From contig CACJRY010000001.1 in the NCBI GenBank assembly GCA_902595855.1, positions 1 to 64,000 on the forward strand: 64,000 bases of DNA, in the 5' to 3' direction. This document shows positions 2,780 through 64,000 of the stretch, one piece after another. The position numbers and the translations under genes were made by a program. Every line of letters begins with the position of its first letter. The stretch's first letter is position 1. Under the pieces are notes generated by a model. It did no database searches. It was not told the origin of the DNA and saw only the letters and a list, made by a program, of their open reading frames with translations. The DNA comes from an uncultured Alphaproteobacteria bacterium (GTDB lineage Bacteria > Pseudomonadota > Alphaproteobacteria > HIMB59 > GCA-002718135).

Positions 2780-3528
2780 ATAATTTTACACAGCATGATT
2801 TAACTGCAGACATTGTTAAGGCGAATAATCCAAGAATAGGAGTAATAGCTTTATCAACAGATTTTACTATTGAACAAGATTATAGAAATATCTGTCACTC
2901 AATCCCTGTCGATATTTTTGTTAATCGTATACCTTTTGAAAATCCATTAAATCATGAAAATTATTTGAAAATGGCAAATCATATTAGTGAAGTTTCATCA
3001 CAAATTTTACCATCGCAGGACTTAGATATTATTGCATACGGATGTACATCTGGAACAATTGCTATTGGCTCAGATAGAATAAAAGAAGAGATCAATAAAA
3101 CTAAACCTAAAGCTAAAGTAACAACTCCAATAACAGCAGCATTGAAAGCTTTTAATCATTTGGGTTTAAAAAATATTGCAGTTCTTACTCCTTATCCAAA
3201 AGATGTAAATGTAACTGTTTATAATTATTTAATTGATAATAACATTAATATTGAGTCTTTTAGCTCATTTAATTTAGAATATGACTCTGAAATTGCTCAA
3301 GTCAGTTTATCTAGCTTGGAAAAAGAGATTAAAAAAATAGACCTAAGTAATGTTGATGGATTGTTTGTTTCCTGCACTGCTCTTAAAATTGTAGATGTAT
3401 TGGACCGAGTTGAAAGGTCTCAAAATACTATAGTAATATCAAGTAATCAGGCTATTATATGGGACTGCTTAAGGACAGTTGGTATTGACTCAAAAATAAA
3501 AGGCTATGGTAAATTATTTCTGAGCTGA
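2776..3528 (+). CDS. eutA: Asp/Glu racemase / maleate isomerase-like protein (EutA-like)
   Basis: 250 aa; YGCTSGTIAIG and LFVSCTALKIVD cysteine motifs; overlaps the preceding gene (ATGA) and is followed by eutB/eutC-like genes. Confidence 0.65.
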   Translation: MNNFTQHDLTADIVKANNPRIGVIALSTDFTIEQDYRNICHSIPVDIFVNRIPFENPLNHENYLKMANHISEVSSQILPSQDLDIIAYGCTSGTIAIGSDRIKEEINKTKPKAKVTTPITAALKAFNHLGLKNIAVLTPYPKDVNVTVYNYLIDNNINIESFSSFNLEYDSEIAQVSLSSLEKEIKKIDLSNVDGLFVSCTALKIVDVLDRVERSQNTIVISSNQAIIWDCLRTVGIDSKIKGYGKLFLS

Positions 3529-12324: not shown

Positions 12325-12339
12325 ATTTTAAAATTAAAA

Positions 12340-12357
12340 GGGGGATGTTAATCCCCC
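12340..12357 (-). terminator. Rho-independent terminator/attenuator between substrate-binding protein and permease genes
   Basis: On the minus strand GGGGGA-TTAACA-TCCCCC followed by TTTTAATTTT. Confidence 0.75.
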
Positions 12358-12380
12358 TAAAAAAAATTATTTTTAATGGA

Positions 12381-13328
12381 TTATTTTATCCAATTGCCCC
12401 ATCTATCTTTATTATTTGCCATCCATTCAGCTACAACAGCTTCAACTGTATTACCATCAAGATCGACAGCCGCAACAAGATTTCCCATTTCATTACTATC
12501 GAGTGTAAATGCTTCAACAGCATCATAAGCACCTGGCCATTTATCTTTAAGCATGCTGGAAGCAACTTTCCAAATAGGACCTCTTGGTTTACCACAATCA
12601 TAAGCAGCATTTTTATTTATACCCCATGATGGATCTGTATAACATTCAGTTGTATAAGGAGGGAATTCTACAAATTCCCCATCATATTTAGATGGTGCCC
12701 AATGCGGAGCGTAAACCCAAAGCATTATTGGAGCTTTTCTTTGATAAGCAGATTCTAATTCACCAAAAAGAGCTCCATCAGTTCCTGCATGAATTACCTC
12801 CCAATCTAAACCAAGCGCTTCAACACGTTCATCATCATATCCACCCCATGTAACAGGTCCACCTAGGTATCTTCCTTTTGGAGATGTTTCAGGAGTAGAG
12901 AAAGCTTCTGCACAATCATTAAGTGCTTCCCAATTAGGTAGTCCTGGACATTTTTCTTTCATATAGGAAGGGTACCACCATTCCTCAATTGCATCCATCC
13001 CAGTAGTTCCAACGTTAACAACTCTTCCATCAGCCGTGTATTCATCAATAGCATCACGACCAGTTGTTTCCCACATTTCCATTGCTACATGAAGATCTCC
13101 TGTTTGAAGACCTGCAAATTGAGCAATATAATCGGCGGGAACAAGCTCTACGTTGTACCCAGCTTCTTTAAGAACTTCAGCCATAATATTAGTTGTAATT
13201 AATTGACCTGTCCAGTCATGCAAAGTAAGCTTAATAGGATCTTTTGATTCTACCGCATAAATATTTTGTGCAAATAGAATAAAAATAAAACTTAATAAAA
13301 TATTAAATTTATTTTTAAGAATTTTCAT
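12381..13328 (-). CDS. Glycine betaine/proline-type ABC substrate-binding protein (ProX-like, OpuAC family)
   Basis: 315 aa; signal peptide, then PIKLTLHDWTGQLITTNIMAEVLKEAGYNVELVPADY and CPGLPNWEALNDC. Confidence 0.85.
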   Translation of the reverse strand: MKILKNKFNILLSFIFILFAQNIYAVESKDPIKLTLHDWTGQLITTNIMAEVLKEAGYNVELVPADYIAQFAGLQTGDLHVAMEMWETTGRDAIDEYTADGRVVNVGTTGMDAIEEWWYPSYMKEKCPGLPNWEALNDCAEAFSTPETSPKGRYLGGPVTWGGYDDERVEALGLDWEVIHAGTDGALFGELESAYQRKAPIMLWVYAPHWAPSKYDGEFVEFPPYTTECYTDPSWGINKNAAYDCGKPRGPIWKVASSMLKDKWPGAYDAVEAFTLDSNEMGNLVAAVDLDGNTVEAVVAEWMANNKDRWGNWIK

Positions 13329-13452
13329 TTTACCTCCCAGTAATAATTTGATAAAAATACTAATTAAAACTATTGAATAAAACTACTAAAAACGAATAAT
13401 AAAATCTAATTTTTTCGAGAAATATAAAGATTATTTATTTATTTTTTAAATT

Positions 13453-14463
13453 TTAATTGTTGATAAATCTAGATACTGTTTCTCTATTGAGAGAACCAAC
13501 AATATTATTTGATCTATCAATAACTGAAACTGAGCCTTCAGAAAGAACTTTTTCAAGAATTGAAAATATTTTCTCATCTTCATAAACTGTTAAAGAATTA
13601 CTTGGTTGTTTTTGATTATTCATTATGCTTTTTACAGATAACAACCTCTCTCTTGGAAGGTCTTCAGTAAATTCTTTTACATAATCATCTGCAGGCTTCA
13701 TAATTAAATCTTCAGGACTTCCAATTTGTACTATTCTTCCTTCATTCATAATAATAATTCTATCTGCTAATTTAATTGCTTCATCAAAATCATGAGTAAT
13801 AAAAATAATAGTTTTTTTAAGTGAGTTTTGAATTTTTAAAAACTCATTTTGCATTTCTTTTCTTATTAATGGATCTAATGCAGAAAATGGTTCATCTAGA
13901 AACCATAATTCAGGTTTGACAGCTAAAGAGCGGCCAATACCTACTCTTTGTTGTTGGCCTCCTGATAGTTCTTTTGGAAAATAATTTTCTCTTCCTTGAA
14001 GTCCTACTAGATCAATAATTTCCATAGCAGACTTCTCTCTTTCTGTCCTATTTATACCCTGTACTTCTAGAGGGAAGGCAATATTTTCTATTACTGTTCT
14101 ATGAGGGAAAAGGGCAAAGTGTTGGAATACCATACCCATTTTATGTCTTCTAATTTCAATTAATTCGTTTTTTGTTAATTTTCCCATGTCAATATTTTCA
14201 AAAAAAATTTCTCCAACAGTCGGATCAACTAATCTTGACATGCATCTTACTAGAGTTGATTTTCCTGAACCGCTTAGACCCATTATTACAAGAATCTCAT
14301 TTTCATAAACTTCTAAAGTAGCATTTCTAATTGCCTGAATATAACCATTTTCTTCAATTATTCTTTTATCAGGGTTATAATTATGACTTTGTAAAAATTC
14401 TTTCGGCTTATCTCCATACAGTTTCCAAACATTTTTACATACAAGTTTAGGTGACTTATGCAT
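13453..14463 (-). CDS. Glycine betaine/proline-type ABC transporter ATP-binding protein (ProV-like)
   Basis: 336 aa; Walker A GLSGSGKST, signature LSGGQQQRVGIGRSLA, C-terminal CBS-like tail. Confidence 0.88.
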   Translation of the reverse strand: MHKSPKLVCKNVWKLYGDKPKEFLQSHNYNPDKRIIEENGYIQAIRNATLEVYENEILVIMGLSGSGKSTLVRCMSRLVDPTVGEIFFENIDMGKLTKNELIEIRRHKMGMVFQHFALFPHRTVIENIAFPLEVQGINRTEREKSAMEIIDLVGLQGRENYFPKELSGGQQQRVGIGRSLAVKPELWFLDEPFSALDPLIRKEMQNEFLKIQNSLKKTIIFITHDFDEAIKLADRIIIMNEGRIVQIGSPEDLIMKPADDYVKEFTEDLPRERLLSVKSIMNNQKQPSNSLTVYEDEKIFSILEKVLSEGSVSVIDRSNNIVGSLNRETVSRFINN

Positions 14464-15600: not shown

Positions 15601-15619
15601 TGTTTCAAAATCTGAAACT
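15601..15619. promoter_or_regulatory. Putative 19-bp palindromic operator, site 1
   Basis: TGTTTCAAAATCTGAAACT; arms GTTTCA/TGAAAC; centre about 50 bp upstream of the soxB ATG. Same layout as 57770-57788 and 63702-63720. Confidence 0.6.
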
Positions 15620-15659: not shown

Positions 15660-16925
15660 ATGACACGTTTTAATGCCTGGAATGTATTTAAAAATGGTTT
15701 TACTGGTCAAAAAAGTTGGGACAGACAATGGCGCGATCCTGTACCAAAAAAAGAATATGATATCATCATAGTTGGAGGAGGTCTTCATGGCTTAGCCACT
15801 GCTTATTATTTAGCAAAAAATCATAATAAAAAAAATATAGCAGTTCTAGAAAAAGGATGGATAGGTGGTGGAAACGCTGGACGAAACACAACAATCGTTC
15901 GTTCGAATTATATGATGCCAGGTAATCATGAATTTTACGAGCATTCATTAAAGCTATGGGAAGATTTAAGTCACGATTTAAATTACAATGTGATGTTTAG
16001 TCAAAGGGCACATGTTTCACTTTTTCATAGTCCAGGCGCAAGAGACGGAGCAGCAAGAAGGTATAACATTATGCGTCTACATGGTACTGATGCTGAAATA
16101 TGGGACTTAGATACTCTTAAAAAAAATATTCCTCATTTAAATTATGATGATGCAAGATTTCCAATCATGGGTGCTGCAGTTCAAAGAAGGGCAGGAAACG
16201 CTAGACATGATTCAGCAGTATGGGGTTTTGCACGAGCTGCAGATAGTTTAGGCGTTGATATATTACAAAATTGTGAAGTAACAGGTGTTAAGAGATCTCA
16301 AAATAATATTGAGAGTTTAGAAACATCAAGAGGAACCCTTAAAGCTAAAAAAATAGGATTTGCAGTCGCAGGCCATACATCTGTTTTATGGCAGATGGCA
16401 GGTCTTGGAAATTTACCAATTGAGTCACATAAACTCCAAGCTTTTGTCACAGAGTCTATTAAGCCTCTATTAGATCATGTTGTAGTATACGGTGTTGGTG
16501 GAGCTCATTTTTATATTTCTCAATCAGACAAGGGTAGTATGGTTTTTGGCGGAGATTTAGATTGGTATAAGTCGTATGCCCAAAGGGGAAATCTACCAAT
16601 TGTTCAAGATTGTGCTGAGGCTGCTATGGCTATCATGCCTTGTTTAGGAAGAATACGTCTTTTACGACACTGGGCTGGCGTCATGGATATGTCTATGGAC
16701 GGCTCTTTTTTCATATGCAAAACACCTTTATCGAATTTATATCTTAATGCTGGATGGAATTATGGAGGCTTTAAAGCAAGCCCTGCCTCTGGCTGGTATT
16801 TTGCTGATTTAATAGCTAATGAGCAACCTCATAAACACATACAGAATCATAATTTAGAGAGATTTGAAAAAGGAATTAATATTGACGAGCGTGGAGCTGG
16901 TCCAGATCCAAAGTTGCACGGTTGA
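15660..16925 (+). CDS. soxB: Sarcosine oxidase beta subunit
   Basis: 421 aa; IIVGGGLHGLATAYYLAKNH, GGGNAGRNTTIVRSNYM. Confidence 0.92.
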   Translation: MTRFNAWNVFKNGFTGQKSWDRQWRDPVPKKEYDIIIVGGGLHGLATAYYLAKNHNKKNIAVLEKGWIGGGNAGRNTTIVRSNYMMPGNHEFYEHSLKLWEDLSHDLNYNVMFSQRAHVSLFHSPGARDGAARRYNIMRLHGTDAEIWDLDTLKKNIPHLNYDDARFPIMGAAVQRRAGNARHDSAVWGFARAADSLGVDILQNCEVTGVKRSQNNIESLETSRGTLKAKKIGFAVAGHTSVLWQMAGLGNLPIESHKLQAFVTESIKPLLDHVVVYGVGGAHFYISQSDKGSMVFGGDLDWYKSYAQRGNLPIVQDCAEAAMAIMPCLGRIRLLRHWAGVMDMSMDGSFFICKTPLSNLYLNAGWNYGGFKASPASGWYFADLIANEQPHKHIQNHNLERFEKGINIDERGAGPDPKLHG

Positions 16926-16926
16926 T

Positions 16927-17211
16927 ATGATTAGAATTAAATGTCCATATTGTGGTGAAAGAGATCATAGTGAGTTCACTTACGGTGGTGATGCTTCTAT
17001 AAAATATCCAGCACTAGATGCACCTGCATCAGAGTGGACGAAGGCTATTTTCTTTCGTGAAAATATAAGAGGTATGCAAAAAGAAACTTGGCATCATACA
17101 AATGGTTGCAGACTATGGTTAGAGGTAGAGAGGTCTACGATTACCCATGAAATAAAAAGCGTAAAGGCATGCCATCCACAAATTGAAAAAATTACGAAAA
17201 ATAAATCATGA
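16927..17211 (+). CDS. soxD: Sarcosine oxidase delta subunit
   Basis: MIRIKCPYCGERDHSEFTYGGDA..., typical SoxD zinc-binding start. The ORF track begins upstream at 16864; ATG at 16927 directly follows the soxB stop. Confidence 0.92.
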   Translation: MIRIKCPYCGERDHSEFTYGGDASIKYPALDAPASEWTKAIFFRENIRGMQKETWHHTNGCRLWLEVERSTITHEIKSVKACHPQIEKITKNKS

Positions 17212-20165
17212 CTTCACTAAGAAAAGAAAACTACGGTAAAATTAACAGAGAAAAAGTGCTGGGCTTTAGTTGGGATAATAAAGAATATTTTGGATATGAA
17301 GGTGACTCTCTAGCCTCTGCACTATTGGCAAATGATGTTAGAATAGTTGGTAGAAGTTTTAAATATCATCGTCCACGAGGAGTAATGTCTTGTGGCGTTG
17401 AAGAGTCAGGGGCTTTAGTAACTGTTGGATCTGGAAGTAGAAGAGATCCGAATGTTCGTGCAACAACACAAGAACTTTATTCTGGATTAAATGCCTCAGG
17501 TCAAAATGCATTTCCGAATGTTAATTTTGATTTTGGAGGTGTAAATAATTATTTAAGCCGTTTTTTTGCAGCTGGTTTTTATTATAAAACATTTATGGGT
17601 CTACCTCCATTTGAATGGGGTAAGGGAACTGGAATTTGGATGGTTTTTGAAAAAATTATTCGAAAAGCAGCCGGCATGGGTAAAGCTTCTAAGGAACCTG
17701 ATCCAGATAGCTATGAACATGCTAATGATTTTTGTGATGTGCTTGTTATTGGGTCTGGTCCTGCAGGTATTGCTGCAGCTCAAGAAATAGCTAATAATAA
17801 ATTAGATGTTATTTTAATTGAACAGGACTCTTTACTTGGAGGAAATAGTTTATCTCAAAAAGATTTTGATCCTTACCTTTTAAATACTCAACTAAAAAGC
17901 AGTGGTATTAGAGTTATGCCCAGAACAACAGCCTTTGGTATTTATGATAATACTGTTGTTGGAGCGTTGGAAAGAGTAACTGATCATTTGCCTACTCCTC
18001 ATAGTAGTTTGCCCCGCCAACGTTTTTGGACAATTAGAGCAAAACATATCATTGTAGCAAGTGGTGCTCTTGAAAGACATATTGCATTTAATAACAATGA
18101 TTTACCTGGAGCAATGACTGTAAACGCATCTAAACATTATTTAAATAGATATGGTGTTTTAACTGGAAATAATATTGTCATCTCAACAAATAATGACTCT
18201 GTATATCAAACAGCTAAAGAATTGCATGAGGCAGGCTCAAAAGTTACAATTTTAGACTCAAGAGACAATGTCAATCATGATTTATCAAAAGACATTGATC
18301 TTCATTTAAATACTCTGCCATTTAGTATTAATGGTAGAAAAAAAATTGACGGTATTGATGTTTGTAAAACAACAGATCTATCAAATAAAAATACAATTAT
18401 TTGTGATCAAGTTTTAATGTCAGGAGGCTGGTCACCAATTGTTAATCTTGTGTCTCACCGAGGTATTAAACCTACATGGAATCAAGAAAACTTATGTTTC
18501 ATTCCGGGACAAATTAAAGAGAATATTTCTGTTGTAGGATCGGCAAAAGGTATTTGGGATGAAAAGAATTGCATAGAGTCAGGCTTTGTTGGTGCTAATG
18601 AAGCAATGAATACTTTTGGTATGCACAAAAAAGAAATTTCTTTTCCATCAGTAGGGGGGTGGTCAAATCCGATAGAACCTTTATTTGAAGTTAAATCAAA
18701 TAAATTTCCATCAAAAAGTTTTGTCGACTTTCAACATGATGTAACTGCTGAGGATGTAAGGTTAGCACACAGAGAAGGTTTTATCTCTGTTGAGCATTTA
18801 AAAAGATACACCACTCTAGGAATGGCAAACGACCAAGGCAAAATGGGCAATATAATTGGTTTATCTCTTATGGCGGAACAACTAGATAAAACTATTCCAC
18901 AAGTTGGAACAACAGTTTTTCGACCACCCTATACACCAGTTCCAATAGGTGCTTTAACAGGAAGAAATGTTGGAAAGCATTTTAGGCCTTTAAGAGTAAC
19001 ACCAATGCATCAATGGAATATTGATCATGGAGCAAAAATGATTGAGGTTGGTCTTTATCAAAGACCTTGGTACTACCCTAAAAAAAATGAAACATTGAGT
19101 GATTCATATATTAGGGAGACAACAATTGTTAGAAAAACAGTTGGTATTTGTGATGTGACATCACTGGGTAAAATTGCTATTCAAGGTCCTGATGCAACAG
19201 AACTCGTAAATCGTATTTACACAAACCCCTTTGCAAAACTTCCAATTGGTAAAGCACGGTATGGAATTATGTTACGCGATGATGGTATTGTGATGGATGA
19301 TGGTACGTCATGGAGACTCGGTGAAAATGAATACTTTATGACTACATCAACCGCAGCTGCTGCAAAAGTGATGTCGTGGTTAGAAGAGTTACTCCAGACA
19401 AGATGGACAGATTTAAAAGTTAATGTGACAAGCGTCTCTGAACAATGGGCAGGTGCCGCAATCGCTGGTCCAAAATCTCGAGATGTTTTGAATGAATGTG
19501 TTTTTGATGCAAGTGAAATTACAAATGATAATTTACCTTTCATGGGAGTACTACAAACTAAACTCAAAGATGGCACACCATGTAGAGTTGTTAGAATAAG
19601 TTTTTCAGGAGAGTTAGCGTACGAGATGTATATTGAGTCTGATTATGCTCATGGAATGATGGACTTATTATGGGAAAGTGCTCAAAAATATGATGGTTGT
19701 TTATATGGTCTTGAAGCTTTAGGAGCTTTAAGGGTTGAAAAAGGACATGTAACTGCTGCTGAGCTTGATGGAAGAGTAACAATTGATGATGCTGGTTTGG
19801 GAAAGATGGCATCAACAAAAAAATCCTACATTGGAAGTGCTATGAGAAAAAGAGGAGTTCTAAGTGCGGATGATAGAGACATGCTAGTTGGTTTTTTCCC
19901 TATAAATGAAAAAGAAACTTTTAATGCTGGCACAATTGTTTGTGAAAAAAATAATATTAAAGGGCAGGGCGTGGGTCGTATAACGTCAGTTACTCATTCG
20001 CCAGAGTTAGGCCATTGGATTGGAATAGGGTTTGTTAAAGGAGGTCTTGAAAAGTGGAAAGATATAACACTGATAGGTGCAGATCCAGTAAGAAACAAAC
20101 AAATGGAAATAAAAGTTGTATCACCTCATATGATTGATCCAGAAGGTAAGAGAATGTATGCTTAA
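17208..20165 (+). CDS. soxA: Sarcosine oxidase alpha subunit
   Basis: 985 aa; N-terminal Fer2-like domain (SFKYHRPRGVMSCGVEE), FAD domain VIGSGPAGIAAA, C-terminal GcvT-like domain. Confidence 0.93.
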   Translation: MTSLRKENYGKINREKVLGFSWDNKEYFGYEGDSLASALLANDVRIVGRSFKYHRPRGVMSCGVEESGALVTVGSGSRRDPNVRATTQELYSGLNASGQNAFPNVNFDFGGVNNYLSRFFAAGFYYKTFMGLPPFEWGKGTGIWMVFEKIIRKAAGMGKASKEPDPDSYEHANDFCDVLVIGSGPAGIAAAQEIANNKLDVILIEQDSLLGGNSLSQKDFDPYLLNTQLKSSGIRVMPRTTAFGIYDNTVVGALERVTDHLPTPHSSLPRQRFWTIRAKHIIVASGALERHIAFNNNDLPGAMTVNASKHYLNRYGVLTGNNIVISTNNDSVYQTAKELHEAGSKVTILDSRDNVNHDLSKDIDLHLNTLPFSINGRKKIDGIDVCKTTDLSNKNTIICDQVLMSGGWSPIVNLVSHRGIKPTWNQENLCFIPGQIKENISVVGSAKGIWDEKNCIESGFVGANEAMNTFGMHKKEISFPSVGGWSNPIEPLFEVKSNKFPSKSFVDFQHDVTAEDVRLAHREGFISVEHLKRYTTLGMANDQGKMGNIIGLSLMAEQLDKTIPQVGTTVFRPPYTPVPIGALTGRNVGKHFRPLRVTPMHQWNIDHGAKMIEVGLYQRPWYYPKKNETLSDSYIRETTIVRKTVGICDVTSLGKIAIQGPDATELVNRIYTNPFAKLPIGKARYGIMLRDDGIVMDDGTSWRLGENEYFMTTSTAAAAKVMSWLEELLQTRWTDLKVNVTSVSEQWAGAAIAGPKSRDVLNECVFDASEITNDNLPFMGVLQTKLKDGTPCRVVRISFSGELAYEMYIESDYAHGMMDLLWESAQKYDGCLYGLEALGALRVEKGHVTAAELDGRVTIDDAGLGKMASTKKSYIGSAMRKRGVLSADDRDMLVGFFPINEKETFNAGTIVCEKNNIKGQGVGRITSVTHSPELGHWIGIGFVKGGLEKWKDITLIGADPVRNKQMEIKVVSPHMIDPEGKRMYA

Positions 20166-20724
20166 TAGAAATTCAGCAATTATAGAAAAGTATAATACTG
20201 GAAAATATCCGTTTGAAGATAATATTGAAATTATATTTTTTGAAAACTGCAATCTTATAATTCAACAAATTGCTGCATGGCCTGATGAAATATCAAATGT
20301 AGATAAGTTTTTTTCTGATCAATTAGGAGTTCAAAAAAATATTGATTTTAATAGAGGAAAAATTCTAAACAACAATTCACTATGGAGAATGGAACCTTCT
20401 AAATGGTGGTTATTAGGCAGTACAATAAATTTGCCAGAGAATCTCGGAACATCACTTGAGCTATCTCACGCTTTTACCTCAATTACAATTAAAGGTGCAA
20501 AAAGTGACATCTTACTTAATAGACATTTACCTCTTGATCTACGATTAGATAATTTTCCAATATATTCATCAGCAAGTTCAGCAATTCACCATGTAAGTGT
20601 CAAACTTTTTAGACTTAGTGAGAAAGAATTTAAACTTTTTATTCCTAGAGGTTTCGCTTTATCTATTTGGGAAATTTTGCTCGAGACAGCTTCTCAATTT
20701 GGTTATGAAATAATAGACAGTTAA
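20158..20724 (+). CDS. soxG: Sarcosine oxidase gamma subunit
   Basis: Position after soxA, SSAIHHVSVKLFRLSEKEFKLFIPRGFALSIWEIL. ATG at 20158 overlaps the soxA stop. Confidence 0.75.
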   Translation: MLNRNSAIIEKYNTGKYPFEDNIEIIFFENCNLIIQQIAAWPDEISNVDKFFSDQLGVQKNIDFNRGKILNNNSLWRMEPSKWWLLGSTINLPENLGTSLELSHAFTSITIKGAKSDILLNRHLPLDLRLDNFPIYSSASSAIHHVSVKLFRLSEKEFKLFIPRGFALSIWEILLETASQFGYEIIDS

Positions 20725-52700: not shown

Positions 52701-53552
52701 ATGAATAATTATATAACAGATCAATCCAAGCAATTTGAAGGAAAGGTTATAATTGTAACTGGGAGTACTCAGGGTAGTGGGGCTGAAACTGCTAAACTTT
52801 TTGCTGCAAGAGGAGCTAAGGCAATAACTATTTGTGGAAGACAAGACAATAAAGGTATTAAAATAAAAAAAGAAATTGAAGAATTAGGAACGAGCTGTCT
52901 ATATGTAAAAGCAGATTTATCAAAGGTTGAAGATTGTAAAAAAGTTGTTGAACTCACTGATAAAGAGTTCGGCACAGTGCATTCATTAGTTAATATTGCA
53001 GGATATACTGAAAGAGGAACTATATTGAGTGCAACTCTCGAAAATTATGAAAAAGCTTTTAATGTAAATGCTAGAGCACCTTTCATACTTATGCAAGAAG
53101 TAGCCAGGATCATGATAAGAGACAAAAATAAAGGAACTATAGCAAATCTTTTATCAATGGCTATGTATAGCGGAATGCCATTTTTGACAGCTTATAGTGG
53201 ATCAAAAGCAGCTTTAGCAATTATGACAAAAAATATAGCTAATTCTCTAGCTGGTCATCAAATAAGAGTTAATGCTCTAAATATCGGTTGGACTGATACG
53301 CCTGCAGAGCATGATATTCAAAAAAGAGTTCATAAAAAAGAAGATGATTGGCTTACAATGGAGGAGAGTAAAGTTCCTTTTAAAAGGCTTACAAAAACTA
53401 TTGATGTTGCAAAGGGTCTTGCTTTTATGTGTTCTGATGAATCAGGATTAATGACTGGTAGTGTTATAGACTTTGATCAAACTGTTAATGGCTGGCATTC
53501 TTATTCAGCTTATGAGACAAAAATCCTAGATGATAGTTTATTAGGTGAATAA
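52701..53552 (+). CDS. Short-chain dehydrogenase/reductase
   Basis: 283 aa; VIIVTGSTQGSGAETAKLFAARGA, YSGSKAALAIMTKNIA. Confidence 0.87.
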   Translation: MNNYITDQSKQFEGKVIIVTGSTQGSGAETAKLFAARGAKAITICGRQDNKGIKIKKEIEELGTSCLYVKADLSKVEDCKKVVELTDKEFGTVHSLVNIAGYTERGTILSATLENYEKAFNVNARAPFILMQEVARIMIRDKNKGTIANLLSMAMYSGMPFLTAYSGSKAALAIMTKNIANSLAGHQIRVNALNIGWTDTPAEHDIQKRVHKKEDDWLTMEESKVPFKRLTKTIDVAKGLAFMCSDESGLMTGSVIDFDQTVNGWHSYSAYETKILDDSLLGE

Positions 53553-55610
53553 TTAGTCAATACCTAACATTTTTTTTCTTTCATCTGCCCAAGTTCTAAT
53601 CAGATTATCGGCAGCCAAACATATGAAAGAAACAAATATGCCTAATGTTAAGCCAATACCTGCTCCATTTGGTCTTGATAAACAACCCATTATTATTTGA
53701 CCCAAATCTTCTGTTCCAATTAGAGCACCTAAAACGATCATCATTAGTGCAAAAATTAGAGTTTGATTTATACCAAGCATAATATGTGGAAATGCAAGTG
53801 GTAATTCAATGGATTTCCATCTTTGAAAATTAGACACCCCTGACATAGAGGCAGCATCATGTAAGGAAGACGGGACACTTCTTAGTCCTTCCACAGTATA
53901 TCTAGTTGCTGGTACTGATGCATAAGCAATAGCAGCAATCATTACTGAAGTATCTGTAATACCAAAAAGAAGAATAACAGGTATTAGATAAATAAAGGAA
54001 GGGAAAGTCTGAAAAAAATCACAAACACCAAGAATGAATTTAGCCGAAATTTCATTTCTTGCACATATTGAACCAGTAACAATTCCTAGTATAGCTGATA
54101 CACCTACTGCAAAAGTAGCCATATAGGCAGTTATTAACGCTCTATTCCAATATTCAGATAAAGCTATAAACAATATTAATGCACCAACTATTATGCAGGA
54201 TCTTATTCCTCCAATAATGTATCCTGCGCCCATTACTAACACAAAAGTAGATATTACTGGCATTCCGAGATAAGCATCTCTCATTACAAAAAGAACATTT
54301 GTTATTAAAAATTTATTAAAAATATTTAAGTAATAGAAGAATGTTTCCCAAATCCAATCTACACCTGCATCTAAGATTGGGGCAATTGTTAAACCTTCAC
54401 CAAAAGGTATTAAATATAAATAATTGAATCCATTTTCAAAATAAAATGCACTGATGTAAGCTAAAACTCCTAAAACTGTTGTTAGTAAAATAAAATAAAT
54501 CGAAGCTATATTTTTTTTATAAAAATTTAAGTTAGCAAAATAATCTTTTTGTTTGTTTGCCCACGCTAATGATAATTTATCTAAAACAACTGCAATTATA
54601 ACAACGCAAATACCTATTTCAGCAGCTTTTCCAATTTTAAGTCCATTTAAAGCAACTTTTAAATTAAATCCTAAACCTTTTGCACCAATAAAAGCTGCTA
54701 TAGTTGTCATTGCAAGACATTGCATTATCACTTGGTTTACTCCAATTAAAATATCTCTTCTTGCAGTTGGAATTAAAACTCTAAATAATAATTGAAATCT
54801 ATTACATCCACTCATCAAACCTGATTCTACTACTTCTGGAGATATTTTTTTCAATCCCAGAATTGTTAGGCGTATCATTGGCGGAGTAGCAAATATTATT
54901 GTTGCAACAGCACCTGCGTGATCACCTATTCCAAATAATACTAAAATTGGCACAAGATAAGAAAAGTGAGGCATTGTTTGTGCAATATTTAAGATTGGTT
55001 GCAGTATTTTTTCAACTTTTTTACTTAAATAACCTAATATTCCAAAAGATAATCCTAAAACAAAACAAATTGGAGCTGTAACTAAAACTAGTGATAAAGT
55101 TTCCATTGTTGGTTCCCACTGACCAAAAATAGAGACGTAGAAAAAACCTATACTTGCAATAAAGGCTAAACCTAATCCTTGTAATCTATATCCAAGAATA
55201 AATAATCCAACAACAACAGCAGTCCATGGAACAGCTGGTAGATAAAGCCATTTAAATTCTTTAAAAGCACCTCCAGTAATCGATCCTATTGTTTGCAGTC
55301 CACCTAAAAATATTTCCCTTATAAATATAATTAAAAATAATAAAAAATCTGCGATTGCTCTTGTTATTAATCTAAAAACAGGTTTATCTTCATACATTTG
55401 CCAATCAGGGTCGTAAACTGGAACAGTGAGCCATTTAAACATTAGATTATCTAGTAAACTATTAATTAATAATGGAATATCTTTTAAGAGTGGTGGCAAT
55501 CTCCATAATAAACTATTTTCATTTTCAGGTACAAAAAAGTATAAAAGTAAGAAAACAAAAAATAAAAAAGTAAATTGTTGTGGTCTTGAATTTTTGAAAT
55601 TTGTTAACAT
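53553..55610 (-). CDS. tmoW: TMAO/betaine-type ABC transporter permease, two fused permease domains (TmoW-like)
   Basis: 685 aa; two EAA loops: ESGLMSGCNRFQLLFRVLIPTARRDILIGVNQ and DAASMSGVSNFQRWKSIELPLAFPHIMLGINQ; operon adjacent to tmm. Confidence 0.75.
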   Translation of the reverse strand: MLTNFKNSRPQQFTFLFFVFLLLYFFVPENENSLLWRLPPLLKDIPLLINSLLDNLMFKWLTVPVYDPDWQMYEDKPVFRLITRAIADFLLFLIIFIREIFLGGLQTIGSITGGAFKEFKWLYLPAVPWTAVVVGLFILGYRLQGLGLAFIASIGFFYVSIFGQWEPTMETLSLVLVTAPICFVLGLSFGILGYLSKKVEKILQPILNIAQTMPHFSYLVPILVLFGIGDHAGAVATIIFATPPMIRLTILGLKKISPEVVESGLMSGCNRFQLLFRVLIPTARRDILIGVNQVIMQCLAMTTIAAFIGAKGLGFNLKVALNGLKIGKAAEIGICVVIIAVVLDKLSLAWANKQKDYFANLNFYKKNIASIYFILLTTVLGVLAYISAFYFENGFNYLYLIPFGEGLTIAPILDAGVDWIWETFFYYLNIFNKFLITNVLFVMRDAYLGMPVISTFVLVMGAGYIIGGIRSCIIVGALILFIALSEYWNRALITAYMATFAVGVSAILGIVTGSICARNEISAKFILGVCDFFQTFPSFIYLIPVILLFGITDTSVMIAAIAYASVPATRYTVEGLRSVPSSLHDAASMSGVSNFQRWKSIELPLAFPHIMLGINQTLIFALMMIVLGALIGTEDLGQIIMGCLSRPNGAGIGLTLGIFVSFICLAADNLIRTWADERKKMLGID

Positions 55611-55623
55611 TATTTTTTCTTAT

Positions 55624-56664
55624 TTATTTTCCAAAAATCACTTTTATTACTTTAGATGGGTTTAAAGAACCGACAATTTCATTATTTTTATTAACTACTG
55701 TCAGTATTTCTTTACTATTAAGAATTGACTCAGCTAATGTTTCTATAATTGCATCTTTAGATACTTTTATATCACTTGAAATATTTGAGTCATAAGCGTC
55801 CATAATTGACTCAATCTTAAGAACTTTCTCTCGAGGTACATCCTCGGTAAATTTCTTCACATATTCAGTTGCTGGGTTTAATACAATATTATCAGGTGTA
55901 TCTAATTGCTCTATTATTCCATCTTTCATAATTGCAATACGATCTGCTAAACGAAGCGCTTCATCAAAATCATGTGTCACAAACATAATTGTTTTATTTA
56001 AAACACCTTGTAATCTTAAGAATTCATCTTGCATTTCTTTACGTATAAGTGGATCAAGTGCAGAAAAAGGTTCATCTAGAAACCAAATATCAGGTTCTAC
56101 TGCTAAAGATCTTGCAATTCCTACTCTTTGTTGCTGACCTCCTGAGAGTTCTCTTGGAAAATAATTTTCCCTCCCTTTTAATCCGACTAACTCAACCATC
56201 TCTAGAGCTTTTGCCATACTGTCTCTTGTGCCAGTTCCCTTAATTTGAAGAGGAAAGGCAATGTTTTCAATTACAGTTTTATGAGGAAGAAGTGCAAAAC
56301 TTTGAAAAACCATACCCATTTTATTTCTTCGTAATTCAATTAATTGTTTATTACTCATTGCCAGTAAGTCTTCACCATCAATAAATATTTTGCCTGCAGT
56401 GGCATCTGTAAGTTTTGAAATACATCGAAGCAAAGTTGATTTACCTGATCCAGATAATCCCATTACGACCATCATTTCTCCCTTTTTGACTCCAAATGAG
56501 GCGTTATTTACTCCCACAATACAACCTGCTTCTTGAAAAGTTTTTGCATCAACTTGGCCGTTTGAGTTCTCTAAAAGTTTTGAAGCATTATTTCCAAAAA
56601 TTTTATAAACAGACTCACACTTAATTACTGGAGTATTGTTAGAATTGTTTAATGATTCAGACAT
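55624..56664 (-). CDS. tmoV: TMAO/betaine-type ABC transporter ATPase (TmoV-like)
   Basis: 346 aa; GLSGSGKSTLLRC, LSGGQQQRVGIARSLA, CBS-like C-terminus. Confidence 0.78.
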   Translation of the reverse strand: MSESLNNSNNTPVIKCESVYKIFGNNASKLLENSNGQVDAKTFQEAGCIVGVNNASFGVKKGEMMVVMGLSGSGKSTLLRCISKLTDATAGKIFIDGEDLLAMSNKQLIELRRNKMGMVFQSFALLPHKTVIENIAFPLQIKGTGTRDSMAKALEMVELVGLKGRENYFPRELSGGQQQRVGIARSLAVEPDIWFLDEPFSALDPLIRKEMQDEFLRLQGVLNKTIMFVTHDFDEALRLADRIAIMKDGIIEQLDTPDNIVLNPATEYVKKFTEDVPREKVLKIESIMDAYDSNISSDIKVSKDAIIETLAESILNSKEILTVVNKNNEIVGSLNPSKVIKVIFGK

Positions 56665-56704
56665 TTTTGAACAATATTCTATTTTAAAGCTAAATAAAAT
56701 AAAA

Positions 56705-56730
56705 AAATCCCCCCTTTTTTGGGGGGATTT
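56705..56730 (-). terminator. Terminator/attenuator between tmoX-like and tmoV-like genes
   Basis: AAATCCCCCC-TTTTTT-GGGGGGATTT with U-tract on the minus strand. Confidence 0.85.
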
Positions 56731-56748
56731 TGTATCAATTAAAATTAA

Positions 56749-57699
56749 TTAATTTTTCCAAAGATCAATAAGATCTCTGTGTTGCGCAATAAATTCTGTT
56801 GCAGCTGCAGCATGATCCATGCCTTGACTATCAACTAAATCTGCCATCAATCCAATTTGTGGAGCTGTAAATGACATTTTTGTATAAAATTTATACGCAT
56901 CAGGATGAGTTATTGGGAATTTAATGTGAGCAGCTTTTTTCAGCCATCCTTTAGGAGAACCACAACCTGTAGTTTCAAGAGTTCCTCCATTTTCCAATCT
57001 GCATCCCTCAAAGTATGGTGGGAAATCAATGAATGTAAACCCAGCAGCATCAGTAAAGTTTGGAGACCAGTTGAATATAACTGTTCCACGACCTTCTGCT
57101 TTTGCTGCTTTTAACTCTGCCCACAATGCATCTGCACTACCAGCAAATTTAACAGTCCATAAATCATCAATTCCTAAACCTTTTAGTCTGTTTGGCATAA
57201 CTTCAGTATGCCACTCATAAGGACCTTCTAACCAACGACCTTTTCCATCAGAGTCAGCTGTCGCAAAATTAGCTGCACATTCAGGTGACTTTAGTGCTTC
57301 CCAATTAGGCAGTCCAGGACATAATCCTTCTTCAATTACCCAGTTTGGTACACCCATTTCCTCAAAAGTTATTAAGTTATGACTACCTGCATCAATTAAT
57401 CCTCCTTTATCCATTGCGGCATAAAAAGGAAGAGCCATTGTTGATTCCCAAGTTTCATGTGCTACATGTAAATCACCAATTCTAACTGCTTCGTATCGTG
57501 AAGCTGACTCAGCTGGCACTAGTTCAACTGTGTGGCCCATTTCTTCAAAAACTTGAGCCATGACATTTGCCATAACTATTTGACTTGACCAGTTCAATAC
57601 TGGTATTCTAATTGGATCAGCAGCTTTAGCAATACTTCCAAAAACTGTGAAAGATAGCACTACAGCAGTTAAAACTAACCCTTTTAATACTTTAACCAT
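56749..57699 (-). CDS. tmoX: TMAO/betaine-type substrate-binding protein (TmoX-like)
   Basis: Likely start MVKVLKGLVLTAVVL at 57699 with an upstream GGGAGG RBS; the ORF track extends to 57789. IRIPVLNWSSQIVMANVMAQVFEEMGHTVELVPAESASRYEAVRIGDLHVAHETW; next to tmm. Confidence 0.78.
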   Translation of the reverse strand: MVKVLKGLVLTAVVLSFTVFGSIAKAADPIRIPVLNWSSQIVMANVMAQVFEEMGHTVELVPAESASRYEAVRIGDLHVAHETWESTMALPFYAAMDKGGLIDAGSHNLITFEEMGVPNWVIEEGLCPGLPNWEALKSPECAANFATADSDGKGRWLEGPYEWHTEVMPNRLKGLGIDDLWTVKFAGSADALWAELKAAKAEGRGTVIFNWSPNFTDAAGFTFIDFPPYFEGCRLENGGTLETTGCGSPKGWLKKAAHIKFPITHPDAYKFYTKMSFTAPQIGLMADLVDSQGMDHAAAATEFIAQHRDLIDLWKN

Positions 57700-57769
57700 A
57701 TTACCTCCCGTTAGGTTTAGATTTAAATCTAAGCCATTGTTATTCTCATCTAGAAACATTGCAGTTATG

Positions 57770-57788
57770 TGTTTCTTATTTTGAAACA
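57770..57788. promoter_or_regulatory. Putative 19-bp palindromic operator, site 2 (tmoX-tmm divergent intergenic region)
   Basis: TGTTTCTTATTTTGAAACA; same TGTTTC-N7-GAAACA architecture as sites 1 and 3. Confidence 0.6.
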
Positions 57789-57849: not shown

Positions 57850-59184
57850 ATGACTAAAGTTGCAATTATAGGCTCTGGGCCATGTGGATTATCAATGCTA
57901 CGCGCATTTCAACAAGCTGAAGAAAAGGGTCAAAGCATTCCCGAAATAGTTTGCTATGAGAAACAAGAAGATTGGGGAGGTTTGTGGAATTATAGTTGGA
58001 GAACTGGATCTGATCAATATGGAGATCCTGTTCCAAATAGCATGTACCGTTACTTGTGGTCAAATGGTCCAAAAGAATGTTTAGAGTTTGCAGATTATTC
58101 GTTTGATGAACATTTCAAACAACCGATACCATCTTTTCCACCAAGAGAAGTTTTATACAATTACATATTAGGTAGAGCAAAAAATGGTAACTTAAGAAAA
58201 TATATTAAATTTAGTACGACAGTAACAAACGTCAATTTCAATGGTAGTCAATTTGAGCTCACGTCAATAAATAAAAAAGAAAATAAAATAACTAAAGAAA
58301 TATTTGATTATGTTGTTGTTTCAACTGGTCACTTTTCCGTGCCATATATTCCTGAATATGAAGGGATGAAATCTTTTCCTGGTAGAATTTTACATGGTCA
58401 TGATTTTAGAGACGCTGAGGAATTTAGAAATAAAGATGTTGTTGTATTAGGAAGTAGTTATTCTGCCGAAGATATAGCTCTCCAATGTTACAAGTACGGA
58501 GCTAAATCTGTAACTATTGGTTATAGAAATAATCCTATGGGCTTTAAATGGCCAAACGGTATGAAAGAAGTTCATTACTTAGATAGGCTAGAGGGTAGCA
58601 AAGCAATTTTTAAGGATGGACATGAGCAAAATGCTGATGCTATAATTTTATGCAGTGGCTATTTGCATCATTTTCCATTTCTTGATGACAGTTTGAAGTT
58701 AAAAACAGGCAATCGCTTATATCCTCCAAAACTTTTTAAAGGAATTGTATGGCAAGATAATCATCAGTTAATATATCTTGGAATGCAAGATCAATTCCAC
58801 ACATTTAATATGTTTGATTGTCAGGCTTGGTATGCAAGAGATGTAATTATGGGTAAAATTAAATTGCCAAGTGATGCTGAAATTGAAGCAGATATAAAAA
58901 AATGGGTTGCAGAGGAAGAAAATTTGGAAGATCCAATTCAAATGATAGACTTTCAAACTGAATATACCAAAGAATTACATGCTGCTTCTGATTATCCTGC
59001 AATTGATTTCGAGTTAATGAGAAAACATTTTAAAGATTGGGAGCATCACAAAGAAGAAGATATTTTAACATATAGAAATAAATCCTTTTCTTCTCCTGTA
59101 ACTGGAACAGTGGCCCCAATTCATCATACCCCATGGGCAGAAGCAATGGATGACTCTATGGATACTTTTATGAAATTAAAATAA
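57850..59184 (+). CDS. tmm: Trimethylamine monooxygenase (flavin monooxygenase)
   Basis: 444 aa; AIIGSGPCGLSMLRAFQQA, FxGxxxHxxDFR-like FPGRILHGHDFRDAEEF, VVLGSSYSAEDIALQ; beside TMAO transporter and tdm. Confidence 0.88.
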   Translation: MTKVAIIGSGPCGLSMLRAFQQAEEKGQSIPEIVCYEKQEDWGGLWNYSWRTGSDQYGDPVPNSMYRYLWSNGPKECLEFADYSFDEHFKQPIPSFPPREVLYNYILGRAKNGNLRKYIKFSTTVTNVNFNGSQFELTSINKKENKITKEIFDYVVVSTGHFSVPYIPEYEGMKSFPGRILHGHDFRDAEEFRNKDVVVLGSSYSAEDIALQCYKYGAKSVTIGYRNNPMGFKWPNGMKEVHYLDRLEGSKAIFKDGHEQNADAIILCSGYLHHFPFLDDSLKLKTGNRLYPPKLFKGIVWQDNHQLIYLGMQDQFHTFNMFDCQAWYARDVIMGKIKLPSDAEIEADIKKWVAEEENLEDPIQMIDFQTEYTKELHAASDYPAIDFELMRKHFKDWEHHKEEDILTYRNKSFSSPVTGTVAPIHHTPWAEAMDDSMDTFMKLK

Positions 59185-59561: not shown

Positions 59562-61919
59562 TTATGCTCTTACTCTACTTTTTGTTGGATCATAAAAAGG
59601 AAAACTGACTACTTTCGCTGAAATTCGTTTTTGATGACCATCTAGTTTTCCAATTTCTAATTCTGTTCCTATTTCCGATGAGCGTATGTCAACTCGACAT
59701 AATGCAATATTTTTATTTAACGTGGGAGACATGGTGCCACTAGTAATTATACCAACTTGCGCTCTTCCTGAGTGTACACAATCTCCATGATTAGCTTTTT
59801 CGTTACCTTCAATTTCTAAGCCAACTAATTTTCTATGAGGGTGAGCTTTTCTCTCAATTAATGCTTCTTTACCAATGAAATTTTGCTCTTTAGATTTTAG
59901 AGGAACTGTAAAACTAATTCCTGCTTCAAAAGGATCAGTTTCATCACTAAATTCATTACCACCTAAAATTAATCCAGCTTCAATTCTGAGCATATCAAGG
60001 GCTTCAAATCCCATTGGACAAATTTTAAACTCTTGGCCAGCATCCCAAACAGCATCCCATACTTTAGGAGCATCATCTGGATGACAATATATTTCATAGC
60101 CAAGTTCACCAGTATACCCAGTTCGTGATAACATGATTGGAATTCCAGTATGATCACCAATTCTACTGATCGAAAAATGAAACCATTCTAAATTTTCTAC
60201 ATTCGGGTGTGCTGGTGGTGTCCATATGATTTTTGAGAGAACTTTTCTACTATTTGGTCCTTGAACAGAAATATTATGAAGATGGTCTGTTGAAGATTTA
60301 ATATTCGCATGAAGTTTTAATTCTTCACTTAACTGTGTAAGCCATTCTCCTGAATAATCACTTCCACAAATCCATCTAAAATTATGGTCACCTAATTTAT
60401 AAAGTGTTCCATCATCAATCATTGTTCCATTTTCGTAACACATAGCGGTGTACACTACTTGTCCAACAGCTAATTTTTTTACATTTCGTGTTAATGCTAC
60501 ATTTAGAAGTTCCTCTGCATCAGGACCAAGTATTTCAAATTTTCTTAATGAAGAAAGATCCATCATCACAACATTGTTTCTGCATTCTGTGTATTCTTTT
60601 ATTGTTCCGTGATTATTGTACTTATTAGGTATCCAAAATCCTGTAGAATCCATCATATCGTTTGTTAATTTTGATGTTCTTGGATGAAAACCAGTTTCTT
60701 TTGTTAACATAAAATCACTTCCTGCATTTTTTCTATATCCAATTGATTTAGAAAATTGATTTTTTTCTGAATAAACTCTAACGTATATATCTGTAGGGTT
60801 CCAGTCATTTGCTGTATCAATATCATCAGGGCATGAAGACGATACGCATACAAGATCTTTTTGTGCTTGAAATAAAACATAGTCACCTGGTCTTGACCAA
60901 GGCATATCGGAAAAAATTACGTTATTTGCATCAATTCCTGTATTAAAAAAAAGATTTAAAGCTGCCCATCCATTTCTTTTTTCTACGCCGAATTTATCAA
61001 GTGCATAGTTAAAATTATCAGAGCAGTTTATATGTCCAAAATATCCTTGATCTTCATATAATTTTCTTGTGCAGGCAGTTCCAAATGTATCGTGACGACC
61101 AATAGTGTCTTGAACAACCTCAACTAATGGTTCTAAATTTTTATCAAAATATTTTGAATGCAATCCTGGCATTGCATAAGCGCCACCTAAAATAGCTCTA
61201 GTAGCTGTAGTATCAATTGCAAGCTCTTGTCCACTTTGAAGAGCATTACTATCAAATGCCATAAAATCAGAGCATTGTCTTCCGTATAAATCGATTACTT
61301 GAATATAGTCCCCTTTTTTAATTTCATAAGCGTTCGCAGAGCTATCCTTAATTAGTATTTCCTCTTTCGGAGTTGCCAAGGGATCTGGTAAAATTCTCTC
61401 TAATTTATTATTTTTTGGATTAGCTCTTTTGACTATAACTTCTATGTCAGTTGGTGGGTTTTGATCGCCCACAATCATATTCTCTCCTGGACATGCGAGA
61501 ATAGTAAAACAATTTTCATGGATCAAAATTTTTTCACTATCATTTCTTTTAGAAGCTTCATTAAAAATTAATGATGATGAAAATTGATCTAAATTGATTT
61601 TTTTATTTTGAAGTTTTTTAATTAAAAATAATTTATCAGAACTTAATTTTAAAACTTTTTTAAGATAAGAGTTTTCTATATCAGACCCTTTATCTATAAT
61701 TTTTTGATTATTGTTGCCATTATCATCAAAAACAGTAATTTCACAAACTTGATTACCTTCTAAATTTTTTAAAAATAAAACATCACCTTGATCTAGATCA
61801 ATGCCAATTAATCCTTGACCTTTAACAACATATCTTTCAGTATCTTCTGGCAACCCATATGATCCAACAACTATTGGATTTGATCTTCTCACCGGGTATT
61901 TATTAATATCAATATTCAC
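59562..61919 (-). CDS. tdm: Trimethylamine N-oxide demethylase: DUF1989 domain fused to GcvT-like domain
   Basis: 785 aa; N-terminal DUF1989-like region (YGRQCSDFMAFDS, DTFGTACTRKLYEDQGYFGHINCSDN); C-terminal aminomethyltransferase fold (LSRTGYTGELGYEIYCHPDDAPKVWDAV). Confidence 0.85.
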   Translation of the reverse strand: MNIDINKYPVRRSNPIVVGSYGLPEDTERYVVKGQGLIGIDLDQGDVLFLKNLEGNQVCEITVFDDNGNNNQKIIDKGSDIENSYLKKVLKLSSDKLFLIKKLQNKKINLDQFSSSLIFNEASKRNDSEKILIHENCFTILACPGENMIVGDQNPPTDIEVIVKRANPKNNKLERILPDPLATPKEEILIKDSSANAYEIKKGDYIQVIDLYGRQCSDFMAFDSNALQSGQELAIDTTATRAILGGAYAMPGLHSKYFDKNLEPLVEVVQDTIGRHDTFGTACTRKLYEDQGYFGHINCSDNFNYALDKFGVEKRNGWAALNLFFNTGIDANNVIFSDMPWSRPGDYVLFQAQKDLVCVSSSCPDDIDTANDWNPTDIYVRVYSEKNQFSKSIGYRKNAGSDFMLTKETGFHPRTSKLTNDMMDSTGFWIPNKYNNHGTIKEYTECRNNVVMMDLSSLRKFEILGPDAEELLNVALTRNVKKLAVGQVVYTAMCYENGTMIDDGTLYKLGDHNFRWICGSDYSGEWLTQLSEELKLHANIKSSTDHLHNISVQGPNSRKVLSKIIWTPPAHPNVENLEWFHFSISRIGDHTGIPIMLSRTGYTGELGYEIYCHPDDAPKVWDAVWDAGQEFKICPMGFEALDMLRIEAGLILGGNEFSDETDPFEAGISFTVPLKSKEQNFIGKEALIERKAHPHRKLVGLEIEGNEKANHGDCVHSGRAQVGIITSGTMSPTLNKNIALCRVDIRSSEIGTELEIGKLDGHQKRISAKVVSFPFYDPTKSRVRA

Positions 61920-61999: not shown

Positions 62000-62863
62000 T
62001 TAAATTTCTTTCATTGCGTTTTCAAATTTTATTAAATTCTCATTAGTGTAAGTTTTGTAATCAAAATCTATGTTTGAAGTTATTTCAGATACCATGCTCC
62101 ACATAGTCTCTCTTAGTAAAGAAGCACATTTTACAGCCCGATATTTTTCACTTAATTCTGCAGATATTTTTTTTTCAAAGTAATGTTCTAGTAAATGTGT
62201 TTCTTCATTTTCATCAAACTCATTATTTGATGCTAGTCCACCAAGATCAAATAGTGGGGTATTAAAACCAGCATATTCCCAATCTATCAACCATATTTGT
62301 TTGTCGTTTTTTATGAAATTGGCAGGAAGGAGGTCATTATGACCAAATACAATTTCAAAAGGTGAAGATTTTTTCTCAAGTTTTTTTGATTTTCTTAAAA
62401 GGTCAGGTAAAATTTTAATATATCCACTTGAATTTTCATCTAAAAATTTTTTATAATTTCTGATCACATGGAAAACCCAAAAAATTACTGATTGGCCAAT
62501 TAATTTTTCAGGTATTGAGTTATGTACTTTTTTTAAAAGTTTAATAATTTCATCTAGATTTTTTTTAATATCATCAGAATTTAAAGTTAGTCCTTCAATG
62601 TATTTAAAAATTTGTATTGATTTATTATGAAACAGTAATTCTGGAGAAACCCCAATTGTTGATGCAGCAGTACTAGCCTGAACTTCATTAGCTCTAAAAA
62701 CTAAATGCTCTGGAATATCATCTCCAATTCTTACGAAATATTTATTTAAATTATCTTTTACTAGAAAATTTTGATTTGTTATTCCACCTTTAATGGGAGT
62801 AATATCAATTTTATTTTGCCAAAAATTTAGCGATGATATTAATTCTAAGCTATTTTTATCCAT
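62000..62863 (-). CDS. Choline/ethanolamine kinase-like aminoglycoside phosphotransferase family protein
   Basis: 287 aa; GGITNQNFLVKDNLNKYFVRIGDD, FGHNDLLPANFI, LIDWEYAGFNTPLFDLG. Confidence 0.85.
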   Translation of the reverse strand: MDKNSLELISSLNFWQNKIDITPIKGGITNQNFLVKDNLNKYFVRIGDDIPEHLVFRANEVQASTAASTIGVSPELLFHNKSIQIFKYIEGLTLNSDDIKKNLDEIIKLLKKVHNSIPEKLIGQSVIFWVFHVIRNYKKFLDENSSGYIKILPDLLRKSKKLEKKSSPFEIVFGHNDLLPANFIKNDKQIWLIDWEYAGFNTPLFDLGGLASNNEFDENEETHLLEHYFEKKISAELSEKYRAVKCASLLRETMWSMVSEITSNIDFDYKTYTNENLIKFENAMKEI

Positions 62864-62937: not shown

Positions 62938-63699
62938 ATGACACGTAACTATTTAAGTGGATCGATCAAAAAAGCTCTTGCAATAATTGAATGTGTGGGA
63001 AAATCACCAAAACCACTTAAAGCTAGTCAGGTATCGTTAATTACAAAATTAGATAGAGCTACAGCATTTAGAATTCTGACTTATTTAACAAGTCTTGGAT
63101 ATGTTTTTAAAGACACCTCTAATAATTTGTATTCTTTAGGGCATAAAATTTTTGAATTTGGAGATAAATCAGATTTTCTTAAAACTTTAACCACATTGTG
63201 CTTTGATTACATAAAAAAGTTATCTTATGATACAAATCATATTACTTATTTGGCTGTATTAGAAGGCCCTCATATTGTGTATTGTGATAAAGTTGACCCT
63301 TTAGGCGAAAATGCCCCAAGAGCCTTCCGCATGAGATTAGATGCACATAGTTGTGCATTAGGTAAGGCTATTCTTGCCTTTAAATCAAGAGATGAACTAA
63401 AAGAAATATACAAAAGCTACACACTTCATAAACATACTGCAAATACAATTACATCCCTAGATAAATTATATGGGAATCTCGATAAAGTTAGAAAGAATGG
63501 TTTTAGTGTAAATGAAGCAGAGACATTTGATTATGTTTATGGAATCGGTGCGCCTATTATGGATATTCAAAATAGAGCTATTGCAGGTATTGCAATTTCA
63601 GGAACAAAAGGGAGCATTAATGTGAAATCAATTCCTCAATTAGCAGAAAAGGTAAGAGAAACTGCAAAATTAATATCAAATAAGCTTAAAGAAAATTAG
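62938..63699 (+). CDS. IclR-family transcriptional regulator
   Basis: ATG at 62938 (ORF track extends to 62833); HTH region ASQVSLITKLDRATAFRILTYLTSLGYV and IclR ligand-binding domain. Confidence 0.88.
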   Translation: MTRNYLSGSIKKALAIIECVGKSPKPLKASQVSLITKLDRATAFRILTYLTSLGYVFKDTSNNLYSLGHKIFEFGDKSDFLKTLTTLCFDYIKKLSYDTNHITYLAVLEGPHIVYCDKVDPLGENAPRAFRMRLDAHSCALGKAILAFKSRDELKEIYKSYTLHKHTANTITSLDKLYGNLDKVRKNGFSVNEAETFDYVYGIGAPIMDIQNRAIAGIAISGTKGSINVKSIPQLAEKVRETAKLISNKLKEN

Positions 63700-63701
63700 T
63701 A

Positions 63702-63720
63702 TGTTTCAAGCTTTGAAACA
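63702..63720. promoter_or_regulatory. Putative 19-bp palindromic operator, site 3
   Basis: TGTTTCAAGCTTTGAAACA; perfect 8-bp arms, 3-nt centre; between iclR stop and the next gene. Confidence 0.7.
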
Positions 63721-63784: not shown

Positions 63785-64000
63785 ATGGCTTTTCCGGAAA
63801 AAGTTGATTACGTAATTGTTGGCGCTGGTATTCATGGTCTAAGCACTGCTTGGCATTTAGCTGCAAAACTTAAAGCTAAAGGTAAGGGTGATGGTTCTAA
63901 AATAGTTGTTATTGATAAAGATAGTATTGCTGCTGGAGCAAGTGGGATTGCTTGTGGTGTTGTAAGAAATAATTACTACCAACCTGCTATGAGAGAATTA
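63785..64000 (+). CDS. FAD-dependent oxidoreductase, N-terminal fragment (sarcosine/dimethylglycine oxidase-like; truncated by window end)
   Basis: MAFPEKVDYVIVGAGIHGLSTAWHLAAKL...GASGIACGVVRNNYYQPAMREL; Rossmann GxGxxG. Confidence 0.75.
   Translation, partial: MAFPEKVDYVIVGAGIHGLSTAWHLAAKLKAKGKGDGSKIVVIDKDSIAAGASGIACGVVRNNYYQPAMREL

Follow-up and report, generated by a model that had tools for sequence, protein, structure and literature searches.

The HIMB59 bacteria (AEGEAN-169, once classed as SAR11 subclade V) are small-genome members of the marine bacterioplankton, and the literature we searched yielded no regulator of trimethylamine, TMAO or methylamine use for this group. Among the closest described systems is that of Ruegeria pomeroyi DSS-3, wherein TmaR (AraC family) and TmoR (GntR family) control the same pathway; IclR is not mentioned in the main text of that report (PMC13390433). 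A second point of reference is the flotillin-associated rhodopsin (FAR) cluster, which has already been described in a report that mentions neither palindromes nor trimethylamine (PMC10308929). Here, we analyzed a 64,000-nucleotide stretch of DNA from an uncultured HIMB59 bacterium, hereafter the window. Comparative sequence analysis suggests, with a probability of roughly 0.88, that methylated-amine catabolism in the HIMB59 order has its pathway-specific regulator in an IclR-family protein encoded near the end of the window, which would act via the palindrome TGTTTCA-N5-TGAAACA at three promoters; the predicted regulon would serve the use of trimethylamine, TMAO and methylamine. The features on which the argument draws are as follows.

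15601..15619, no strand assigned: putative operator site 1, TGTTTCAAAATCTGAAACT, 1 mismatch to the core; upstream of soxB
15660..20724, + strand: soxBDAG, sarcosine oxidase / N-methylglutamate dehydrogenase-type heterotetramer; soxB above the TIGR01373 cut-off
53553..57702, - strand: tmoXWV-like ABC transporter (OpuAC binding protein, ATPase, permease); binding protein by PF04069, ATPase and permease from their translations
57770..57788, no strand assigned: putative operator site 2, TGTTTCTTATTTTGAAACA, 1 mismatch; between the divergent tmoX-like gene and tmm
57850..59184, + strand: tmm, trimethylamine monooxygenase; NF058570, 745 bits (cut-off 675)
59562..61919, - strand: tdm, TMAO demethylase, between tmm and iclR; NF053776, 1121 bits (cut-off 1100)
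62000..62863, - strand: choline/ethanolamine-kinase-like gene, divergent from iclR; PF01633
62938..63699, + strand: iclR, IclR-family regulator of 253 aa; PF09339 and PF01614 above cut-off; candidate regulator of the palindrome regulon
63702..63720, no strand assigned: putative operator site 3, TGTTTCAAGCTTTGAAACA, 0 mismatches to the core
63785..64000 (cut by the window end), + strand: FAD-dependent oxidoreductase (DAO), 448 aa in full; PF01266

The equivalog models for Tmm and Tdm both scored above their curated cut-offs, indicating that genes for trimethylamine oxidation are present. The tmoXWV-like transporter is divergent from tmm across site 2, and a specificity for TMAO may be proposed from its synteny with tmm. 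At the soxBDAG locus, soxA scored just under the TIGR01372 cut-off, soxD and soxG were named by position and length, and a comparison by identity did not separate Mgd from sarcosine oxidase. DAO, which continues in L240:2786-4132, opens the DAO-gmaS-mgsA-mgsB-mgsC operon that follows site 3, in which the names gmaS-like (glutamine synthetase family) and mgsA/B/C-like reflect gene order and weak family matches. Together, these genes would convert trimethylamine to TMAO, demethylate the latter and process methylamine by the N-methylglutamate route; a dimethylamine monooxygenase was not identified. The 448-aa oxidoreductase heading the gmaS-mgs operon fits no named family, and is kept both in HIMB59 and in G168, a genome from another family of the class outside the order (L307:3152-5413; DAO identity 68%). 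In G168, a GntR-like gene, recognized by eye, stands upstream of the operon in place of IclR, and there is no palindrome. In the sister family, two mgsABC-like sets were seen, which follow soxBDAG and gmaS, respectively (L237, L238, L309). Beside soxBDAG, the window also holds a second glycine-betaine-type ABC transporter, likewise recognized by eye (10336-14463), at which no palindrome match was detected within two mismatches.

Site 3 reads TGTTTCAA-GCT-TTGAAACA, with 8-bp arms, and lies 2 nt 3′ of the iclR stop and 64 nt from the ATG of the FAD oxidoreductase (63785). This position, 63702-63720, confirms the initial annotation, which had set the site directly after the iclR stop and before the oxidoreductase. 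The 8-bp perfect arms described there are indeed present at site 3, but they are peculiar to some species, and the conserved unit is only the core TGTTTCA-N5-TGAAACA, with 7-bp arms and a 5-nt spacer. When the 1.47-Mb genome (38 contigs) was scanned for this core at up to one mismatch, exactly three matches were obtained (15601, 57770 and 63702), all in the window and all at promoters of this pathway, which speaks for the IclR regulon. The reversed motif gave two matches in the same genome at the same threshold, so the three-site count alone is no proof; the proof lies in conservation. Across 12 genomes, the core returned 47 matches at up to one mismatch versus 6 for the reversed control, and the exact core occurred in 67 of 200 genomes, with the backwards-read motif in 1. 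Furthermore, the AT-rich window contains 38 palindromes with 8-bp arms of any sequence; a single copy therefore proves nothing, and the excess over chance resides in the specific sequence. Several further matches were set aside: one at 30268, with two mismatches, is located within an ORF and appears fortuitous, and extras in relatives at up to one mismatch fall inside ORFs (G110:C1:358172, G057:C1:31662 and G112:C1:456743) or within one end of an ORF (G088:C1:268530).

The genomes compared include 102 of the window's genus and 52 of a sister family, the latter including one single-contig genome of 1,410,127 bp. Among 62 named iclR loci, 60 were usable and 2 end at a contig edge. The site was present between iclR and the oxidoreductase in all 60 usable loci, down to an IclR identity of 42-44%, and it was exact in 53, with one mismatch in five and two in the remaining two; the arms are fixed around five central bases that are free to vary. 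The tmm promoter tells a similar story in both families, although gene order has been rearranged: in the window's genus, the site occupies one aligned position, mostly with one or two mismatches (three in G067), and in the sister family it lies between divergent soxB and tmm. In G049, the tmm site is present on a contig that stops 1.9 kb past tmm. A copy in the regulator's own promoter is usually to be expected of a site that the regulator itself binds. The initial annotation had noted that the iclR promoter carries no copy and had argued against simple autoregulation, a claim that fits the window's family, with 0 of 23 loci having a site within two mismatches, but not the sister family, wherein 35 of 39 loci have it. 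In the window itself, the best match in the iclR promoter has five mismatches, amounting to no copy, and the promoter scan likewise found no site in the region common to iclR and the kinase-like gene.

The presence of the motif was then compared with that of IclR. Orthologues were detected in 21 of the 102 genomes of the window's genus; the 81 absences, set against approximately 26 expected from incompleteness, indicate that iclR is truly accessory in this genus. Of the 21 IclR-positive genomes, 20 had the exact motif in the iclR-oxidoreductase interval; among the 81 IclR-negative genomes it occurred in 5, always within a coding gene (leuS in four, hisF in one). A motif without IclR, which the initial annotation had named as evidence against its proposal, was thus encountered as an exact copy in this genus only inside leuS and hisF. 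IclR, the oxidoreductase and tmm co-occur almost perfectly; because DAO, tmm and iclR come and go as a set, an independent test of the link is offered only by the soxB and the rhodopsin/dimethylformamidase promoters, and soxB offers the best one since it is present with or without IclR. The soxB promoter carried the site, at up to two mismatches, in 17 of 19 IclR-positive versus 6 of 49 IclR-negative genomes of the window's genus (Fisher p ~3e-9, from a hand-counted table that ignores phylogeny, the genomes compared not being phylogenetically independent). Alignment of this promoter showed conserved flanks, with the site alone replaced by unrelated sequence in IclR-negative genomes. The IclR-positive genomes without a soxB site are G032 and G083. 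Four of the six IclR-negative sites are decayed (two mismatches), and the others belong to G020, whose contig ends short of the iclR region, and G080, in which an apparent deletion took iclR and tmm and the reading frame of the oxidoreductase is broken. Together, the 60 of 60 loci and the soxB contrast support the earlier proposal that this IclR is the best candidate for the regulon. In G080 (L308:2644-4381), an SDR gene homologous to window positions 52701-53552 now adjoins the oxidoreductase promoter, and a site with one mismatch is still present at 3050 (L308), without iclR.

In the sister family, 11 of 52 genomes are without a detected IclR, as against 11.6 expected from incompleteness. 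Dimethylformamidase promoters were read in 30 sister-family genomes; nine of these genomes have no detected IclR, and the site is kept in each of the nine. These nine are the nearest thing to a counter-example; they are compatible with missing assembly, and a real loss of iclR may also have occurred in some of them.

The predicted protein has the expected architecture. The iclR gene starts with ATG and ends with a TAG stop at 63697-63699, and its orthologues begin at the same MxRNYLSGS. An N-terminal winged HTH (PF09339, 39.3 bits, cut-off 22) is followed by a C-terminal effector domain (PF01614, 110.8 bits, cut-off 24). The AlphaFold model (pLDDT 77.6) adopts the canonical IclR fold, with HTH helices at 8-22, 29-36 and 40-53, and it matches full-length IclR structures in Foldseek, the best PDB match being 1MKM (E 2e-17). 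None of the curated NCBIfam subfamilies passes its cut-off for this protein: the nearest scores were those of PcaR/PcaU (120.7 bits, cut-off 284.75), BhcR (112.8, cut-off 350) and KdgR (109.8, cut-off 275), and the PobR, IclR and AllR subfamily cut-offs were likewise not reached. Moreover, across orthologues of 42-44% identity that have the same motif, R40, T42 and F44 of the recognition helix are invariant and R45 is nearly always retained.

The motif also appears at a second set of promoters. In the sister family, it is found at -76 of the flotillin-associated rhodopsin start in 30 of 30 loci, with one mismatch (L348-L377). Seven further sister-family copies were scored; five have the site at -79 to -82 (three with one mismatch and two with two), the copy in G150, a partial gene hit, has a 3-mismatch match at best, and the divergent FAR-like copy G143:C23 has no site within two mismatches. 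Further loci of this observation are L236:9981-10755, L235:10440-11217 and L344:6071-6851. The dimethylformamidase promoters of the sister family carry the site with at most one mismatch in 29 of 30 cases, G150 having three mismatches (L314-L343); the regions scanned lie upstream of a 142-aa gene and a 784-aa dimethylformamidase-like gene. In the window's genus, G067 has the rhodopsin site at -76, in a cluster upstream of tmm on the same contig, with ~10 kb from dimethylformamidase to tmm and no separate dimethylformamidase site within two mismatches. Ten promoters of rhodopsin paralogues (eight scored as proteorhodopsin, the other two of no assigned type) were all without a site within two mismatches; for several sister-family proteorhodopsins the start used is internal to the gene, such that the scan took in only ~340-360 nt of genuine upstream sequence. 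A class-wide flotillin search recognized no FAR clusters outside HIMB59 in the sample. We lean toward the view that methylated-amine catabolism and the flotillin-associated rhodopsin/dimethylformamidase cluster are coupled through this one IclR regulon. Dimethylformamidase releases dimethylamine, and the coupling, if true, would assign FArhodopsin to the use of methylated amines or amides. An operator at the FArhodopsin and dimethylformamidase promoters is a testable hint of the purpose of the rhodopsin cluster, of which the literature searched held no earlier one.

As for mechanism, IclR is predicted to bind the core at the soxBDAG, divergent tmoX-like/tmm and DAO-gmaS-mgsABC promoters. Most IclR-family regulators are repressors, and by this analogy repression of the three promoters appears the likelier mode of action; the C-terminal domain would bind a pathway metabolite, upon which repression would be relieved, and the effector may be a methylamine product, such as gamma-glutamylmethylamide or N-methylglutamate. 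Activation in the manner of PcaU and PobR, with the sites just upstream of core promoters and metabolite-bound IclR recruiting RNA polymerase, is a serious alternative, if the less likely of the two. The distance of 40-64 nt between site ends and start codons, and the conserved -10-like sequence 3′ of the oxidoreductase site, are as an activator would have them; however, the family mostly represses, the promoter elements here are guesses, and the distance from the end of site 1 to the soxB start, merely 40 nt, favors promoter overlap. Activation gains further from the mainly activating role of TmaR, which is the master regulator of this pathway in roseobacters (PMC13390433).

Whether IclR represses or activates, its role as the binder must be weighed against other origins of the palindrome. 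Another transcription factor might bind it, with IclR a linked passenger, and since DAO, gmaS and iclR travel together, linkage alone cannot separate the two readings; yet no other regulator was recognized by eye in the window, and the iclR promoter of the sister family itself bears the site, making a passenger role unlikely. Two specific candidates were rejected. A regulator of the AraC TmaR type was ruled out, as AraC HTH_18 (PF12833) was not found in any of seven HIMB59-order genomes tested, with 9 of 14 control genomes positive, and the other IclR encoded in the genome (C3:77495) differs in its recognition helix and follows a scattered distribution of its own. An RNA-level role for the palindrome, for instance as an iclR terminator hairpin, is very improbable: the palindrome begins 2 nt past the stop and shows a modest fold (-8.4 kcal/mol, z -1.5), but the stem is AT-rich, its energy is weak, no T-run follows, and copies of the motif also precede tmm and soxB and, in relatives, iclR and rhodopsin genes. 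Finally, the abundance of 8-bp-arm palindromes and the two reversed-control matches would be what chance in AT-rich DNA predicts, but the conservation in 60 of 60 loci across two families, the 47 versus 6 matches over 12 genomes and the promoter positions already rule out chance matches, leaving that reading a negligible weight.

Set beside the described systems, IclR as a methylated-amine regulator represents a well-supported new assignment, drawn from comparative genomics, of a known kind of regulator, and a defined operator together with its regulator makes the regulon predictable from sequence. The sister-family set of rhodopsin, flotillin, hydrolase, symporter and dimethylformamidase matches the published FAR cluster, and that of G067 does so minus the symporter (PMC10308929). 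The literature searched contained no link of the FAR cluster to methylamines or an IclR, and the putative link to an IclR operator is new as far as searched. The arrangement predicted for HIMB59 resembles that of TmaR and TmoR in that the same pathway (tmm, tdm, gmaS-mgsABC and mgdABCD) would be governed by one regulator at several promoters (PMC13390433). It differs in that TmaR and TmoR belong to protein families unrelated to IclR, and no AraC protein was found in the seven HIMB59-order genomes. With PcaR/PcaU, PobR, KdgR, BlcR and E. coli IclR/AllR, the protein shares its fold and domain order, and a putative inverted-repeat operator lies beside the operon that it would regulate. In contrast to these catabolic regulators of the IclR family, it reaches none of their curated cut-offs, and its predicted target is the catabolism of methylated amines.
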